From positions 372,001 to 436,000 of the forward strand of contig NZ_JRHC01000004.1 in NCBI RefSeq assembly GCF_000949475.1: a stretch of 64,000 nt of DNA. Reading direction: 5' to 3'. Position 1 is the stretch's first letter. Each line of letters opens with the position of its first letter. Both the position numbers and the translations under genes were made by a program. The notes under the pieces are model-generated. The model worked only from the letters and a program-made list of their open reading frames with translations, made no database searches and had not been told where the DNA came from. Shown here in pieces: positions 4,260-45,092 of the stretch. Source of the stretch: Draconibacterium sediminis. Its GTDB lineage: Bacteria; Bacteroidota; Bacteroidia; Bacteroidales; Prolixibacteraceae.

Positions 4260-5546
4260 TCATTTGCCGTTTGTTTGCTGCGGCTGTGGCAGTTCAATGT
4301 AAAAGGTACTTCCTTTTCCGGTAGCTGATTCAACATAAATATTACCCTTAAGTTTTTCGGTAAAATCTTTGCAAATCTTTAGTCCAAGGCCAGTCCCTTT
4401 TTCGTTCCCGGTTCCCGGCAACGATTCGGCAGTACCTTCTCTAAAAATATTCTGCAACTTGTCCGGGTTCATTCCTGTTCCTTCATCTTTAACCGAAATT
4501 ACGGGTGTACCGTTTTCGTTTATTTGGCAATCAATATAAATATTTCCCTTTTCAAACGAATATTTAATGGCATTGGCCAACAGATTGCGCAAAATGGGGC
4601 CAAGGAATTTTTTATCTGTATAAATCGAAAGATCGTCAGGGACCTGGCTAATAATTCGTACACCTTTTAACTCGGCTCTGTTCGAAACCTGGAGACTAAC
4701 CTCCCCGATGATCTTACTCAGTGATACCAGAACAGGATTAAATTTAATCTGGTTGGTTTCGAGCGAAGCCCAGTCGAGTATATTCTGAAGCAGTTCGTCG
4801 GCTTGTTTCGCTGATTGCTGAATATGCGAAAGAAATTGTTGATCCTGCTCTTTTTCCAATCCGGATTCGGTAAGTAATATATCAGAGAAACTCACGATAT
4901 TGCTGTAAAAGCCTCTCAGATCGTGTCCGATAACCGAAAACAATTTGTTTTTTGAGGCGATAAGCTCTCTCAGTTCATTCTCTGCTTTTTTCCTCTCGGT
5001 GATGTCTCTTACATAAACGATCAAACGTTTATCTCCGTTAAGGTTAATAAATTTGGTGTTTATCTCGGTCGGGAAAATCGTCCCGTCCTTTTTTTTGTTT
5101 ACGCGTTCCACATAAACCTCACCCGTTGCCATTTCTTCAGGAATTACATCGGGCAGCATTTCAGCAAATTCATCCGGGACCAGATCTCTTATCGACAGCT
5201 GTAGCATCTCTTCGCGGGTGTAACCAAACATTTTGTGTCCCATGGTATTGCAATCCAAAATTTCCCCACGCTCATTCTCCACATATATTCCATCGAGCGA
5301 CAAATCAATCAGTGTTCTGAATTTAATTTCACTTTCCTGTATGCTTCTGTTTTTTTTCTGGTTCTTGTTAATCAGAAGCGCAATAAAAAATCCGGTAATT
5401 CCACCAAACACGATGGATAATGCCAGGGATGGAAAAGTAAAAGGATTAATTTTTAAGAATAAGAATTGAATGAAAGATAACAGAAAGATTATTGATATAC
5501 CGCTTGTAATCCCTGTAAAAAGTACCGGCTTTGATTTGATTCTCAT
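4260..5546 (-). CDS. Membrane PAS-domain sensor histidine kinase (orphan)
   Basis: A 428-residue kinase. Two membrane helices (about 8-31 and 38-60) with a very short loop between them suggest little periplasmic sensing area. A PAS domain follows (about 68-190; 'IDLSLDGIYVENERGEIL' and the PAC end 'YVRDITERKKAE'), then HisKA with the phospho-acceptor His208 in 'FSVIGHDLRG' and a HATPase_c domain (N321 and N325 in 'NLLANAIKYS', G1 'DEGTG' 354-358, G2 'GTGLG' 384-388). It should autophosphorylate and pass phosphate to a response regulator, but none is encoded nearby. The PAS domain is likely the sensory part; its ligand is unknown. It converges with galE. Confidence 0.92.
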   Translation of the reverse strand: MRIKSKPVLFTGITSGISIIFLLSFIQFLFLKINPFTFPSLALSIVFGGITGFFIALLINKNQKKNRSIQESEIKFRTLIDLSLDGIYVENERGEILDCNTMGHKMFGYTREEMLQLSIRDLVPDEFAEMLPDVIPEEMATGEVYVERVNKKKDGTIFPTEINTKFINLNGDKRLIVYVRDITERKKAENELRELIASKNKLFSVIGHDLRGFYSNIVSFSDILLTESGLEKEQDQQFLSHIQQSAKQADELLQNILDWASLETNQIKFNPVLVSLSKIIGEVSLQVSNRAELKGVRIISQVPDDLSIYTDKKFLGPILRNLLANAIKYSFEKGNIYIDCQINENGTPVISVKDEGTGMNPDKLQNIFREGTAESLPGTGNEKGTGLGLKICKDFTEKLKGNIYVESATGKGSTFYIELPQPQQTNGK

Positions 5547-5780
5547 TAATTTCTTAATTTAAGCGATATAAATATATAATTAATTACCGTATTCCATTCG
5601 TGTCGCTATAGTTGAAACAGATACCTCAATATATCTCTGTTTTTGATTTTTGTTACGGACTCACAACAGCTGTTTAGCAACATTTGCTCACTAAATTATT
5701 TATCGAATTTATTTTATTGACTACATTTATAAGCTCAAACGTCTCATTTTTAAACGATGTAAAACCCAAAATCAATTTCA

Positions 5781-6101
5781 ATGGCGTATTTAAAAGAAGC
5801 ACAAAAGCGCGATTTTGTTAATCAAATGGCAATTATTACCCAGGAGAGTTTCGACCTTATTACAAAACACGGTTTTGATCCTACAAGCCGGATAAATACC
5901 TTAAAAGAAACATTAAAAGAGGCCCGGGATGCTGAAGGCGAACAAATCGATGCCGCTGCCCGGTTAAAAGATGCAACCAGAAAATCGCAGGAGAAGCTTT
6001 CCATAGCTTACAAGGAGGCCTCGAAAACCGTAGAGTTGCTGGCCGGGCTGCTGGGCAAAGACCATCCCCTTATTCAACAAATCAGAAAGATGCGAAAGTA
6101 A
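5781..6101 (+). CDS. Small helical hypothetical protein
   Basis: I do not recognise this 106-residue protein. It is hydrophilic and predicted to be almost wholly helical: residues 3-30, then 'INTLKETLKEARDAEGEQIDAAARLKDATRKSQEKL' rich in Ala, Lys and Glu with coiled-coil character, ending in a basic 'IQQIRKMRK'. No signal peptide or membrane segment is seen. Its coding look (codon use like the neighbours, in-frame ATG after an A-rich leader) supports a real gene. It lies directly before the 21-bp repeat array at 6115-6366 and about 230 bp from the divergent histidine kinase gene. A partnership between the protein and the array is speculation based on position only. Confidence 0.6.
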   Translation: MAYLKEAQKRDFVNQMAIITQESFDLITKHGFDPTSRINTLKETLKEARDAEGEQIDAAARLKDATRKSQEKLSIAYKEASKTVELLAGLLGKDHPLIQQIRKMRK

Positions 6102-6114
6102 CTACCCACTGTTT

Positions 6115-6366
6115 TAACCTGTTCTGATTATTAATCAACCTATTCTGTTTCTGTTTCAACCTAAGATGATTGTAAGTCAACCTAAGTTGATAGCGGACTA
6201 TCTAAAGATGATTGTAAACCAACTATAGTAGGTTTCAAAACAACTAAAGATGAATGTGAATCAACCATGGTCGAATAAGAAACAACTAAGGTAGATATAA
6301 AACCAACCAAAGATGATTAAGAGCCAACTATAGTTGATAGAGAATCAGCCTTGGTATGTGCCGTGT
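6115..6366. repeat. Array of 12 degenerate 21-bp units with palindromic CAAC-N4-GTTG cores
   Basis: Twelve units of exactly 21 bp with no indels begin at 6115, 6136, 6157, 6178, 6199, 6220, 6241, 6262, 6283, 6304, 6325 and 6346. Each opens with a 12-mer close to CAAC-N4-G(T/A)TG. Examples are caacctaagttg (6178), caactaaagatg (6241), caaccatggtcg (6262), caaccaaagatg (6304) and the perfect palindrome caactatagttg (6325). The other nine bases are A-rich and variable. 21 bp is two helical turns, so the sites would lie on one face of DNA. There is no open frame through it: on the minus strand it reads as a heptad of the form S-[ST]-[LIM]-V-x-x-x, but with several TAG/TAA stops. The array fills nearly all of the 344-bp gap before rfbB. 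Confidence 0.85.
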
Positions 6367-6396
6367 CATCCTTCATCTTTTTCTTGTTGAAGTATT

Positions 6397-6426
6397 TTTC
6401 TATATCTGGCGAAAAGCCTACTTTTG
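6397..6426 (+). promoter_or_regulatory. rfbB promoter
   Basis: TTTC at 6397-6400, 18 bp, then TACTTTTG at 6419-6426: a good match to the Bacteroidota -33/-7 pattern. It lies 19 bp before the rfbB ATG and 30 bp after the end of the 21-bp array, so the array sits where upstream regulators would bind. Confidence 0.7.
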
Positions 6427-6445
6427 ATTTTCAAAATAATAAAAG

Positions 6446-7501
6446 ATGAACAAGACAATATTAATTACCGGAGGTGCAGGATTTATTGGATCTCACGTGG
6501 TTCGTTTATTTGTAAATAACTACCCTGATTACAAAATTGTAAACCTCGATAAACTGACTTACGCAGGTAATCTTAATAATTTAAAAGATATTGAAGACCA
6601 ACCCAATTACGAATTTGTAAAGGGCGATATTGTTGACAGTGAGTTTATTCAGCAACTGTTTGAAGAGCGTCAGTTCGACGGGGTGATTCACCTGGCAGCT
6701 GAGTCGCATGTTGATCGTTCGATTTCGAACCCGACCGAATTTGTTTTTACCAACGTTATTGGCACAGTTAATTTGCTGAACGCTGCAAAACATATCTGGA
6801 AGGATAATTTCGAAGGCAAACGTTTCTACCATATTTCAACCGATGAGGTTTATGGTTCGTTGGGCGAAGAAGGTATGTTCACTGAAAAAACCGCATACGA
6901 TCCGCATAGTCCGTACTCGGCATCAAAAGCCAGTTCCGATCATTTTGTGCGTGCCTATAACGATACTTTTGGTGTGCCGGCGGTTATTTCAAACTGCTCG
7001 AATAATTATGGTTCGTTTCAGTTTCCCGAGAAATTAATTCCGCTTTTTATTCACAACATAAAAAACAACAAACCGCTGCCGGTTTATGGTAAAGGCGAAA
7101 ACATTCGCGACTGGCTGTGGGTGGTTGATCATGCCCGGGCCATCGATGTAATTTACCATAAAGGCGTAACTGGAGAAACCTACAATATTGGTGGTTTTAA
7201 TGAATGGACAAACATTGACCTGATTCGGGTGATGTGCCGCAAAATGGATGAAAAGCTGGGCCGCCCGGAAGGCGAATCGGAAAAGCTGATTACCTATGTG
7301 AAAGACCGCGCCGGCCACGATTTGCGTTACGCCATTGATGCCACCAAAATTAAAAACGAACTGGGCTGGGAGCCATCGTTGCAGTTTGAAGAAGGTATTG
7401 AATTGACCATCGACTGGTACCTCGAAAATACCGCATGGCTCGAGAATGTAACTTCGGGCGACTACCAGAAATACTACGAGCAACAGTACGAAATAAGATA
7501 A
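6446..7501 (+). CDS. rfbB: dTDP-glucose 4,6-dehydratase
   Basis: A 351-residue short-chain dehydrogenase that converts dTDP-glucose to dTDP-4-keto-6-deoxyglucose, the second step of dTDP-rhamnose synthesis for surface polysaccharides. The NAD-binding motif TGGAGFIGSH is at residues 7-16; the substrate/catalytic region 'HISTDEVYGSLG' with the Thr-Asp-Glu triad and 'YSASKASSDH' (YxxxK) follow, then 'RDWLWVVDHA', typical of the family. Length is normal. The usual partners rfbA, rfbC and rfbD are not adjacent, so this copy stands alone. It has its own promoter directly after the 21-bp array and two strong terminators behind it. Confidence 0.95.
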   Translation: MNKTILITGGAGFIGSHVVRLFVNNYPDYKIVNLDKLTYAGNLNNLKDIEDQPNYEFVKGDIVDSEFIQQLFEERQFDGVIHLAAESHVDRSISNPTEFVFTNVIGTVNLLNAAKHIWKDNFEGKRFYHISTDEVYGSLGEEGMFTEKTAYDPHSPYSASKASSDHFVRAYNDTFGVPAVISNCSNNYGSFQFPEKLIPLFIHNIKNNKPLPVYGKGENIRDWLWVVDHARAIDVIYHKGVTGETYNIGGFNEWTNIDLIRVMCRKMDEKLGRPEGESEKLITYVKDRAGHDLRYAIDATKIKNELGWEPSLQFEEGIELTIDWYLENTAWLENVTSGDYQKYYEQQYEIR

Positions 7502-8995: not shown

Positions 8996-9601
8996 ATGCC
9001 AGTAAAAATGAGATTAGCGCGACACGGTCGCAAACGCTACGCATACTACCACATTGTAGTAGCTGATAGCAGGGCGCCACGAGATGGCAGGTACATTGAA
9101 AGAATTGGCACGTACAATCCTAACACTGATCCTGCTACTATCGATCTCGATTTTGACAAAGCTTACGACTGGCTTGTTAAAGGCGCACAACCAACCGACA
9201 CTGTAAGAGCAATTTTGTCTTACAAAGGTGTTATGTACAAAAAACACCTGATGGGTGGAGTTAAAAAAGGAGCTTTCGATGAAGCTGAAGCTGAAAAACG
9301 TTTAGAAAGCTGGATTGCAGCAAAAGATGCTAAAATTCAGGCAAAAATCGACCGTTTGGCCGGTAATGCCGCTGCAGAAGCTGAAAAACAACTGGAAGCT
9401 GAGAAGAAAGTCAACGAAGAAAGAGCTGCCGCTATTGCTGCAAGAGAAGCAGAATTAGCTGCCGAAGCACAAGCTGCTGTTAAAGAAGCTGAAGCTGAAG
9501 CCGCTGCTGAAGAAGCAGAAGAAGAGGCAACTGCTGAAGTTGAAGAAACTCCTGAAGCTGAAGCTGAGACTTCAGAAGAAGAAAAAGGTGCGGAATCTTA
9601 A
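8996..9601 (+). CDS. rpsP: 30S ribosomal protein S16 with long acidic C-terminal tail
   Basis: The first 80 or so residues ([20 protein letters not shown], then '[19 protein letters not shown]') are canonical S16, a 30S assembly protein that binds 16S rRNA. The family is usually 80-90 residues; here it continues to 201 with a helical, Lys-containing linker and then a very acidic Ala/Glu tail from about residue 120. Long tails on S16 are common in Bacteroidota; their job is not known to me. It has its own promoter and a strong terminator, with rimM next, the normal S16-RimM neighbourhood. Confidence 0.97.
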
Positions 9602-45020: not shown

Positions 45021-45092
45021 TAGCCCGTAGGGGATTCGAACCCCTGCTACCAGGATGAAAACCTGGCGTCCTAACCCCTAGACGAACGGGCC
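45021..45092 (-). tRNA. tRNA-Glu (anticodon TTC)
   Basis: The minus strand reads ggcccgttcgtctagg..., with acceptor stem GGCCCGT/ACGGGCT (a G-T pair at 1:72), anticodon stem CCAGG/CCTGG with loop TTTTCAT (anticodon TTC), T-arm AGGGGTTCGAATCCCCT-like and discriminator A. CCA is not encoded. Confidence 0.97.

Follow-up and report, generated by a model that had tools for sequence, protein, structure and literature searches.

The 21-bp array at 6115-6366 of the window (the whole stretch of DNA that was analysed, 64,000 nucleotides long) is one copy of a gene-plus-array cassette, whose gene encodes a 106-residue protein that we call P106, and is not mainly a feature of rfbB, the gene that follows it here. 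The features concerned are listed by position.

5781-6101, plus strand: P106 gene, 106 aa, helical/coiled-coil product; the ORF directly 5' of the array
6115-6366, no strand assigned: 21-bp array of 12 units, each a CAAC-YWWR-GTTG core and a 9-bp spacer; from lag identity and unit scoring
6178-6189, no strand assigned: core CAACCTAAGTTG with both arms intact, read from the sequence
6325-6336, no strand assigned: perfect palindromic core CAACTATAGTTG, read from the sequence
6419-6426, plus strand: candidate rfbB -7 element TACTTTTG, kept in G006, G009 and G012; no sigma-70 match
6446-7501, plus strand: rfbB, dTDP-glucose 4,6-dehydratase-like (Pfam PF16363, E 2.7e-98; name from an earlier sequence-only reading of this DNA)

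The window array and P106

The array is real, which confirms the observation made in the sequence-only reading. Identity of 6115-6366 to itself is 0.602 at lag 21, 0.61 at lag 42 and 0.545 at lag 63. The autocorrelation proposed there as a check lies far above its null of 2000 dinucleotide-preserving shuffles of the same stretch, which at lag 21 average 0.276 (sd 0.029, maximum 0.372) and never reach 0.602; the best value at any lag from 10 to 60 in any shuffle is 0.397. No other stretch of the window is as strong at lag 21; Tandem Repeats Finder detects only two fragments of the array. As claimed, 12 units start in phase (6115, 6136 and so on to 6346) with zero indels, and the palindromes CAACTATAGTTG at 6325 and CAACCATGGTCG at 6262 match the description given there. 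Scored over the eight arm positions of CAAC-N4-GTTG, two units (6178 and 6325) match at 8/8, six at 7/8, one at 6/8 and three (6115, 6199 and 6346) at 5/8, the degenerate units being those at both ends and unit 5. Phase is retained despite drift of the sequence, in this array as in its relatives.

AlphaFold2 predicts for P106 one long helix with short flanking helices at high local confidence (pLDDT 92.8, pTM 0.58; helices 6-22, 24-29, 35-91 and 96-105). P106 sequences show a 3.5-residue hydrophobic periodicity, an acidic body and a basic C-terminus, with a median pI of 5.4 over 49 proteins. Best matches to known families are weak and discordant (Pfam E 0.017; PHROGs E 0.014), and NCBIfam and PADLOC return zero matches for the window P106. 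Neither a PDB nor a viral structure matches at E<=0.001, and no PDB sequence matches; P106 has no transposase, ribbon-helix-helix or HTH match, the window P106 matches nothing in plasmid and phage collections, and the P106 alignment finds no confirmed relative among viral contigs. P106 may bridge rather than read DNA.

Elsewhere in the window, low-complexity 27- and 18-bp repeats at 9464-9567 encode the acidic Glu/Ala-rich tail of ORF 8996-9601, a protein which we take to resemble ribosomal protein S16.

Linkage of P106 and arrays across genomes

In a search of 140 family genomes, the P106 alignment gives 53 matches, counting the window's own copy; they fall in 31 genomes and in 6 of 23 genera. 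Surroundings were fetched for all 53; the linkage test needs at least 500 bp of flank (n=51 on each side), so that two matches with less were dropped from the downstream test, and an array is called where the 1 kb that follows P106 reaches an identity of 0.52 or more at lags 21/42/63. A 21-bp-periodic array lies downstream of P106 in 40 of the 51 cases and upstream in none, a positive outcome for the look beside homologues of the 106-residue gene that the sequence-only reading had suggested. Downstream of the same genes, the neighbouring periods 20/40/60 pass in 1/51 and both 22/44/66 and 24/48/72 in 0; as background, the array criterion is passed by 2/64 window tiles and 4/54 rfbB/cobS locus ends. 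The 11 genes without a detectable array include copies followed by insertion-sequence-like ORFs (L205), carrying an in-frame stop (L242) or truncated (L251). Two of the 40 arrays (L211 and L235) fall below the length cut, leaving 38 delimited P106-linked arrays. A tandem-repeat scan also finds period-21 arrays with other words past other P106 genes.

Outside the family, 395 genomes sampled across the class hold two P106 relatives, and a phylum-wide sample of 395 genomes adds no further one. G488, from another family of the class, has a TTCTTC/GAAGAA array directly 3' of its P106 relative; this 21/42-bp array reaches a lag-42 identity of 0.79 and is palindromic at p=0.005. G511, the SW_6 genome, has no array past its P106 relative and a CAAC array elsewhere in the genome. 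A 238-aa protein beside the SW_6 array was considered as a P106 relative and rejected as unrelated.

When neighbouring ORFs were clustered for 20 of the 53 P106 loci, the P106 cluster spanned 17 loci and the next widest, of DUF559 type, at least 6. An HNH_2-domain ORF cluster is found no more than about 2 kb from P106 in 9/53 loci; by the clustering and a Pfam run on ten neighbour ORFs, DUF559 and Schlafen-group helicase genes lie near others. A defence-island reading was rejected: the neighbourhoods differ, and P106 is without a PADLOC match. Past arrays of quite different words (for example L199, L201, L209, L222 and L228), 14 of the 51 downstream stretches carry a box close to GCTGAAAGGCCTRTGAATAAAGGGAT with at most 8 of 26 mismatches, found in 0/51 shuffles and derived from some of the same sequences; it is absent after the window array.

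Arrays also occur away from P106. The strict CAAC pair pattern is present in 6 of 37 genomes of the genus (reversed control, 0). With one mismatch allowed it is present in 30 of 120 family genomes, a sample outside which G005 falls; nine or more forward matches occur only in G000, G006, G009 and G012, the remaining genomes having one or two, within the reversed-control range. These same four, out of 22 genomes read there, carry a CAAC array between two genes that we take from their ORF sequences to be cobT and cobS: all four genomes whose rfbB locus has a CAAC-type P106 carry it, as against 0/18 others. On an 18-species tree built from rfbB and cobS, G005, G024 and G051 lack both the cobT-cobS array and a CAAC-type P106 though they sit amid carriers, and the distant G006 has both. 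This co-occurrence, which amounts to few independent contrasts on a tree with some weak forks, speaks in favour of a putative functional link between P106 and the cobT-cobS array. Upstream of cobS, at the place of the CAAC array in other genomes, G003 (L142) and G043 (L139) have a 42-bp tandem repeat (2 x 21), which is not palindromic against permuted columns; both genomes are without a P106 match.

More CAAC arrays adjoin one gene in G012, presumably inorganic pyrophosphatase-like, and two in G006, presumably aminotransferase-like and SusC-like. Beside the latter gene, at L081:2829-3311, the 21-bp units lie in a 105-bp higher-order repeat. GTAC arrays occur in 5/37 genomes (reversed control, one genome), and at a conserved place, which we take to be between ligA and a thioredoxin-like gene, they are kept in G007, G012 and G051 without a GTAC-type P106. 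The metagenome-assembled genome Md513_bin63 (Bacteroidales; 1.8 Mb, completeness unstated) has CAAC arrays at four loci and no P106 match. At two of its loci, L156 and L165, 21-bp CAAC arrays adjoin Fic-domain genes: the L156 neighbour is presumably Fic-like by its HPF-GNGR motif, and that of L165 combines Fic with Bro-N. Strict dependence of arrays on P106 is contradicted by these Md513_bin63 arrays and by the GTAC arrays that lack a cognate P106. The partnership of P106 and array is thus unproven, since arrays without P106 exist. In another family of the order, G188:C216:6900-7037 (L092-L098) is a near-identical 21-bp tandem array with CAAC-N4-GTTG words. Viral matches to the CAAC pattern (9 stretches) were set aside, each having just two in-phase core units.

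At rfbB itself, the gene is found in 36 of 37 same-genus genomes; 30 loci were fetched, 29 of them with a readable upstream region, and six of these (G000, G005, G006, G009, G012 and G024) carry the array. With arrays at other loci besides, a tie to rfbB as such is unsupported. Relic rfbB arrays stand without an intact P106 in two genomes: G024 has the array with P106 absent, and G005 keeps three to four units and about 27 residues of P106. ORFs that are presumably IS110-like separate this remnant from the histidine kinase gene (L075). In G009 (L234), the P106 ahead of rfbB has 51% identity to the window P106, rfbB has 98%, and the array word is the same.

Words, palindromy and arm conservation

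The step, 21 bp or a multiple of it, is held across unrelated words. Consensus words include CAACC, TTACC, GTACC, TATCC, TACCC, GCCCC, TGTCC, GACCC, AACCC, ATTCC, AAGAT, TGCCGA and others, which pair with their own reverse complements (CAACC..GGTTG, GTACC..GGTAC, TTACC..GGTAA and GCCCC..GGGG, for example); by eye, many are centred on CC-NN-GG. Against permuted columns, palindromy is significant (p<=0.05) in 31 of the 38 delimited P106-linked arrays and not in the other seven; the count is 42/53 with 15 further arrays added, several of which were found via the CAAC pattern itself. In the single genome G001, five P106 genes each have a word of their own, and palindromy is significant for three of the five. 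Word types follow P106 clades in good part (CCCC, CAAC apart from G009, AAGAT, AACCC and TACCC), a grouping judged by eye on a tree with many weak forks (51 rows including the two distant relatives, with four of the 53 matches excluded as short or stop-bearing). P106 is acidic overall, has no structural match and varies rather little between paralogs with different words, so the DNA reader may be a protein other than P106.

Across the 53 arrays (38 P106-linked and 15 others) the units depart from consensus 3366 times and 19 indels are inferred, often at array edges, and 40 arrays are indel-free; the arrays were delimited by lags 21/42/63, which favours unbroken phase and overstates the regularity. 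In the pooled CAAC arrays of rfbB and cobS (nine arrays, 111 units), base preferences are symmetric, and information is 1.45 bits per column in the arms, 0.74 in the centre and 0.53 in the spacer. A CCCC array is orthologous in four species, with 12 units, the same copy number and no indels. Variable columns there number 10/96 in arms, 34/124 in spacers, 12/24 at the two central bases and 44/95 in flanks (arms vs spacers, p=0.002; arms vs centre, p=5e-5). In a fifth species, G008, the CCCC array is shorter; one alignment shows a 63-column gap (three units) and another, made from slightly different stretches, places the gaps differently. Divergence among the four species is 0.34-0.50 at rfbB fourfold sites, 0.09-0.19 at P106 fourfold sites, 0.12-0.19 in array spacers and 0.02-0.08 in arms; thus spacers drift like P106 fourfold sites, whereas arms do not. 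The CCCC locus may postdate the species or have been exchanged. The sequence-only reading gains support here, in that the palindromic arms are the conserved part, in the CCCC orthologs as in the pooled CAAC units.

Runs of at least four A are placed unevenly: 26/34 have their end 1.5-3.5 bp to the left of the axis. These come from 10 of 27 arrays examined, a count that omits 11/38 arrays (four CAAC, one A-rich and six with a weak axis). Five of the ten are of CCCC type, and L241 alone provides 7/26 runs. This A-run arm, often GAAAAAC-like, occupies the left-arm place while right arms differ. The mirror T-run arm is weaker, with 10/36 beginning in the right-arm place and 14/36 within the spacer. 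Such a pattern would suit half-sites that are read independently, without being proof of them.

Possible roles and known systems

Two readings treat the array as something expressed. A decayed or living coding repeat, giving a heptad protein from seven-codon units, had been the alternative named in the sequence-only reading; 21 bp does equal seven codons, at least one frame is stop-free in 33/53 arrays, and heptad ORFs can be read in several. Yet this reading fails the stop-codon test: stops are as frequent as in column-shuffled arrays (p<=0.05 in 2/53, L077 and L156; median 0.77) and interrupt all six frames of the window array and of the tested Draconibacterium rfbB/cobS counterparts, which leaves a coding origin very improbable. 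The other reading is a transcribed structural RNA, a chain of short hairpins that P106 would bind and that would act as an attenuator, an RNA scaffold or an element of the 3' UTR. The palindromic arms could pair, the window array folds modestly, with z of -3.5 on the minus and -1.9 on the plus strand, and the cob arrays sit between co-oriented genes. However, the 38 arrays show no arm covariation: complementarity within units is +0.04 of 6 over background and pairing between neighbouring units is 0.10 below it, and a compensation that L230 seemed by eye to show was not borne out across the set. Predicted folds of the window array are also without a regular hairpin chain, terminator-like sequences (noted by eye, unscored) stand between P106 and several arrays, and no Rfam family matches the array sequences scanned, a loose threshold yielding one match far below gathering score. 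We give the RNA reading a low probability. At gathering score, the sole Rfam match in the window and six loci is a tRNA gene at window 45021-45092, minus strand. With no coding, covariation or Rfam signal, the symmetric arms are best read as putative half-sites for protein subunits.

The remaining rivals accept the array as DNA. One is an ordinary operator array of an rfbB regulator, with dimers stacked upstream of the promoter to control nucleotide-sugar synthesis. In all six array-carrying species the last scored core of the rfbB array begins 99-100 bp ahead of the rfbB start codon, and 12 dispersed array copies (4 at cobS, 4 at the ligA/thioredoxin-like place, 4 others) each lie 5' of at least one gene. 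The Bacteroidota -7 consensus is TAnnTTTG, and TACTTTTG at 6419-6426 fits it. The 'clear promoter' of rfbB that had been seen past the array is unconfirmed, a sigma-70-type scan of 5500-6600 giving five sites where 3.9 are expected, every one of them on the minus strand. Against the operator reading, 23 of the 29 rfbB genomes read have no such array upstream of the gene, G024 keeps its rfbB array without P106, and P106 genes whose arrays have other words are located elsewhere than at rfbB. The next ORF (at least 100 aa) after the 38 P106-linked arrays is convergent in 21, co-oriented in 16 and out of reach in one; most of these arrays therefore do not precede a promoter, in contrast to the dispersed copies. 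We think a plain operator improbable. The main rival is a selfish or neutral minisatellite, perhaps within a non-autonomous element with a conserved tail, that spreads by slippage and transposition with P106 riding along or hosting it, much like BrickBuilt. Species differ by whole units in the copy number of their rfbB and cob arrays, the tail box recurs past different words, the distribution is patchy, arrays occur without P106, and near some copies lie ORFs that we take to be insertion-sequence-like. Yet, compared unit by unit, orthologous arrays keep their arms better than their spacers and centres and show no homogenisation; indels are few, the same step recurs with unrelated words, and the association is confined to the 3' side of P106. 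We consider a minisatellite unlikely.

The reading we prefer, tentatively and at somewhat short of even confidence, is a platform of half-sites for dimers, set in helical phase, whose partner protein would be the coiled-coil P106. Starting from the linkage, the step, the palindromy, the lack of coding and base-pairing signals and, in one ortholog set, the arm conservation, we infer the binding and function of such a platform as follows. The array would be the DNA half of a two-part cassette, a P106 gene followed by roughly 6-16 palindromic sites, and the 21-bp step, as two helical turns, would place all sites on one face of the helix. Each palindrome would be bound by a dimer reading two half-sites of 4-6 bp; neighbouring dimers may be bridged by P106 or by a complex containing it; and the resulting nucleoprotein filament would mark, anchor or insulate the locus. 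Paralogous cassettes would bear half-site sequences of their own, and secondary arrays (cobT-cobS, ligA/thioredoxin-like and others) could serve the same kind of complex as additional addresses. The window array also borders on the rfbB promoter region and could influence transcription of rfbB. Gene and array stay together while words change and geometry is constant, which points to a complex that reads geometry.

Taken further, P106 and its array could be a new class of self-contained DNA-addressing module, pairing a fast-diversifying palindromic array, stepped at exactly two helical turns, with a small coiled-coil protein. Paralogs would then be different addresses with modular half-sites, either a specific arm or a GAAAAAC-like A-run arm common to several array types, and the module a chromosomal anchor, bridge or insulator whose secondary arrays form a trans-acting network; this we regard as possible but on balance doubtful. 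Many words at one step would in any case offer a natural series for the evolution of dimer specificity and the role of helically phased arrays, and the arrays account for heptad-repeat ORFs that gene callers could report at such loci.

Among known systems, BrickBuilt of Porphyromonas gingivalis is a MITE-minisatellite with a 23-nt unit, one sequence family and IS5-like terminal inverted repeats (PMC4596501). Like our arrays, it is an intergenic tandem array of a short, near-constant unit at many loci in Bacteroidales, with leader and tail segments and a varying unit count (PMC4596501). Unlike them, it has in the parts of that account considered here no linked gene and no set of palindromes at one step, where we find P106 linkage, a step of 21 bp or a multiple, and many differing words in place of a 23-nt unit of one family (PMC4596501). 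REPs are 20-40 bp palindromes, most of them GTAG- or CGTC-tagged in the sections of the source used, the GTAG ones being tied to tyrosine transposases (PMC3733652). The arrays resemble REP/RAYT systems in having several intergenic palindrome copies that are gene-linked in some cases, and differ in their 10-12 bp cores, strict tandem order and a linked protein without a transposase match (PMC3733652); neither a GTAG/CGTC tag nor a RAYT transposase is found in the array cores or P106. PARCELs, described in the portion of the report consulted as encoding a 25-residue protein repeat, share tandem repeat DNA, dyad symmetry and a patchy distribution, whereas P106 arrays show no coding selection, and a frame is not kept through the repeats (PMC2996958). 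Nor do paired arms show the compensatory changes of a structured RNA. A literature search that took in loosely matching lists, with subscription journals and preprints outside its scope, found the P106-array cassette in no title or abstract among the matches listed. We could not file the cassette under any known family among those compared, which does not establish its absence from print.

In centromere and iteron arrays (parS/parC-type, with ParB/ParR-type proteins), tandem sites are spaced at close to whole helical turns, next to the gene for a small partner protein. The cassette is like them in its palindromic or direct tandem sites and in a specificity that differs between copies. Unlike at those loci, no ParA/ParM/TubZ-type partner recurs among the P106 neighbours listed; unlike at plasmid partition loci, the copies are chromosomal, often several per genome, and P106 matches neither ribbon-helix-helix nor HTH proteins. 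With a helically phased array of dimer sites the cassette shares two properties: spacing is conserved over sequence, in whole helical turns, and the palindromic arms are conserved above the spacers.
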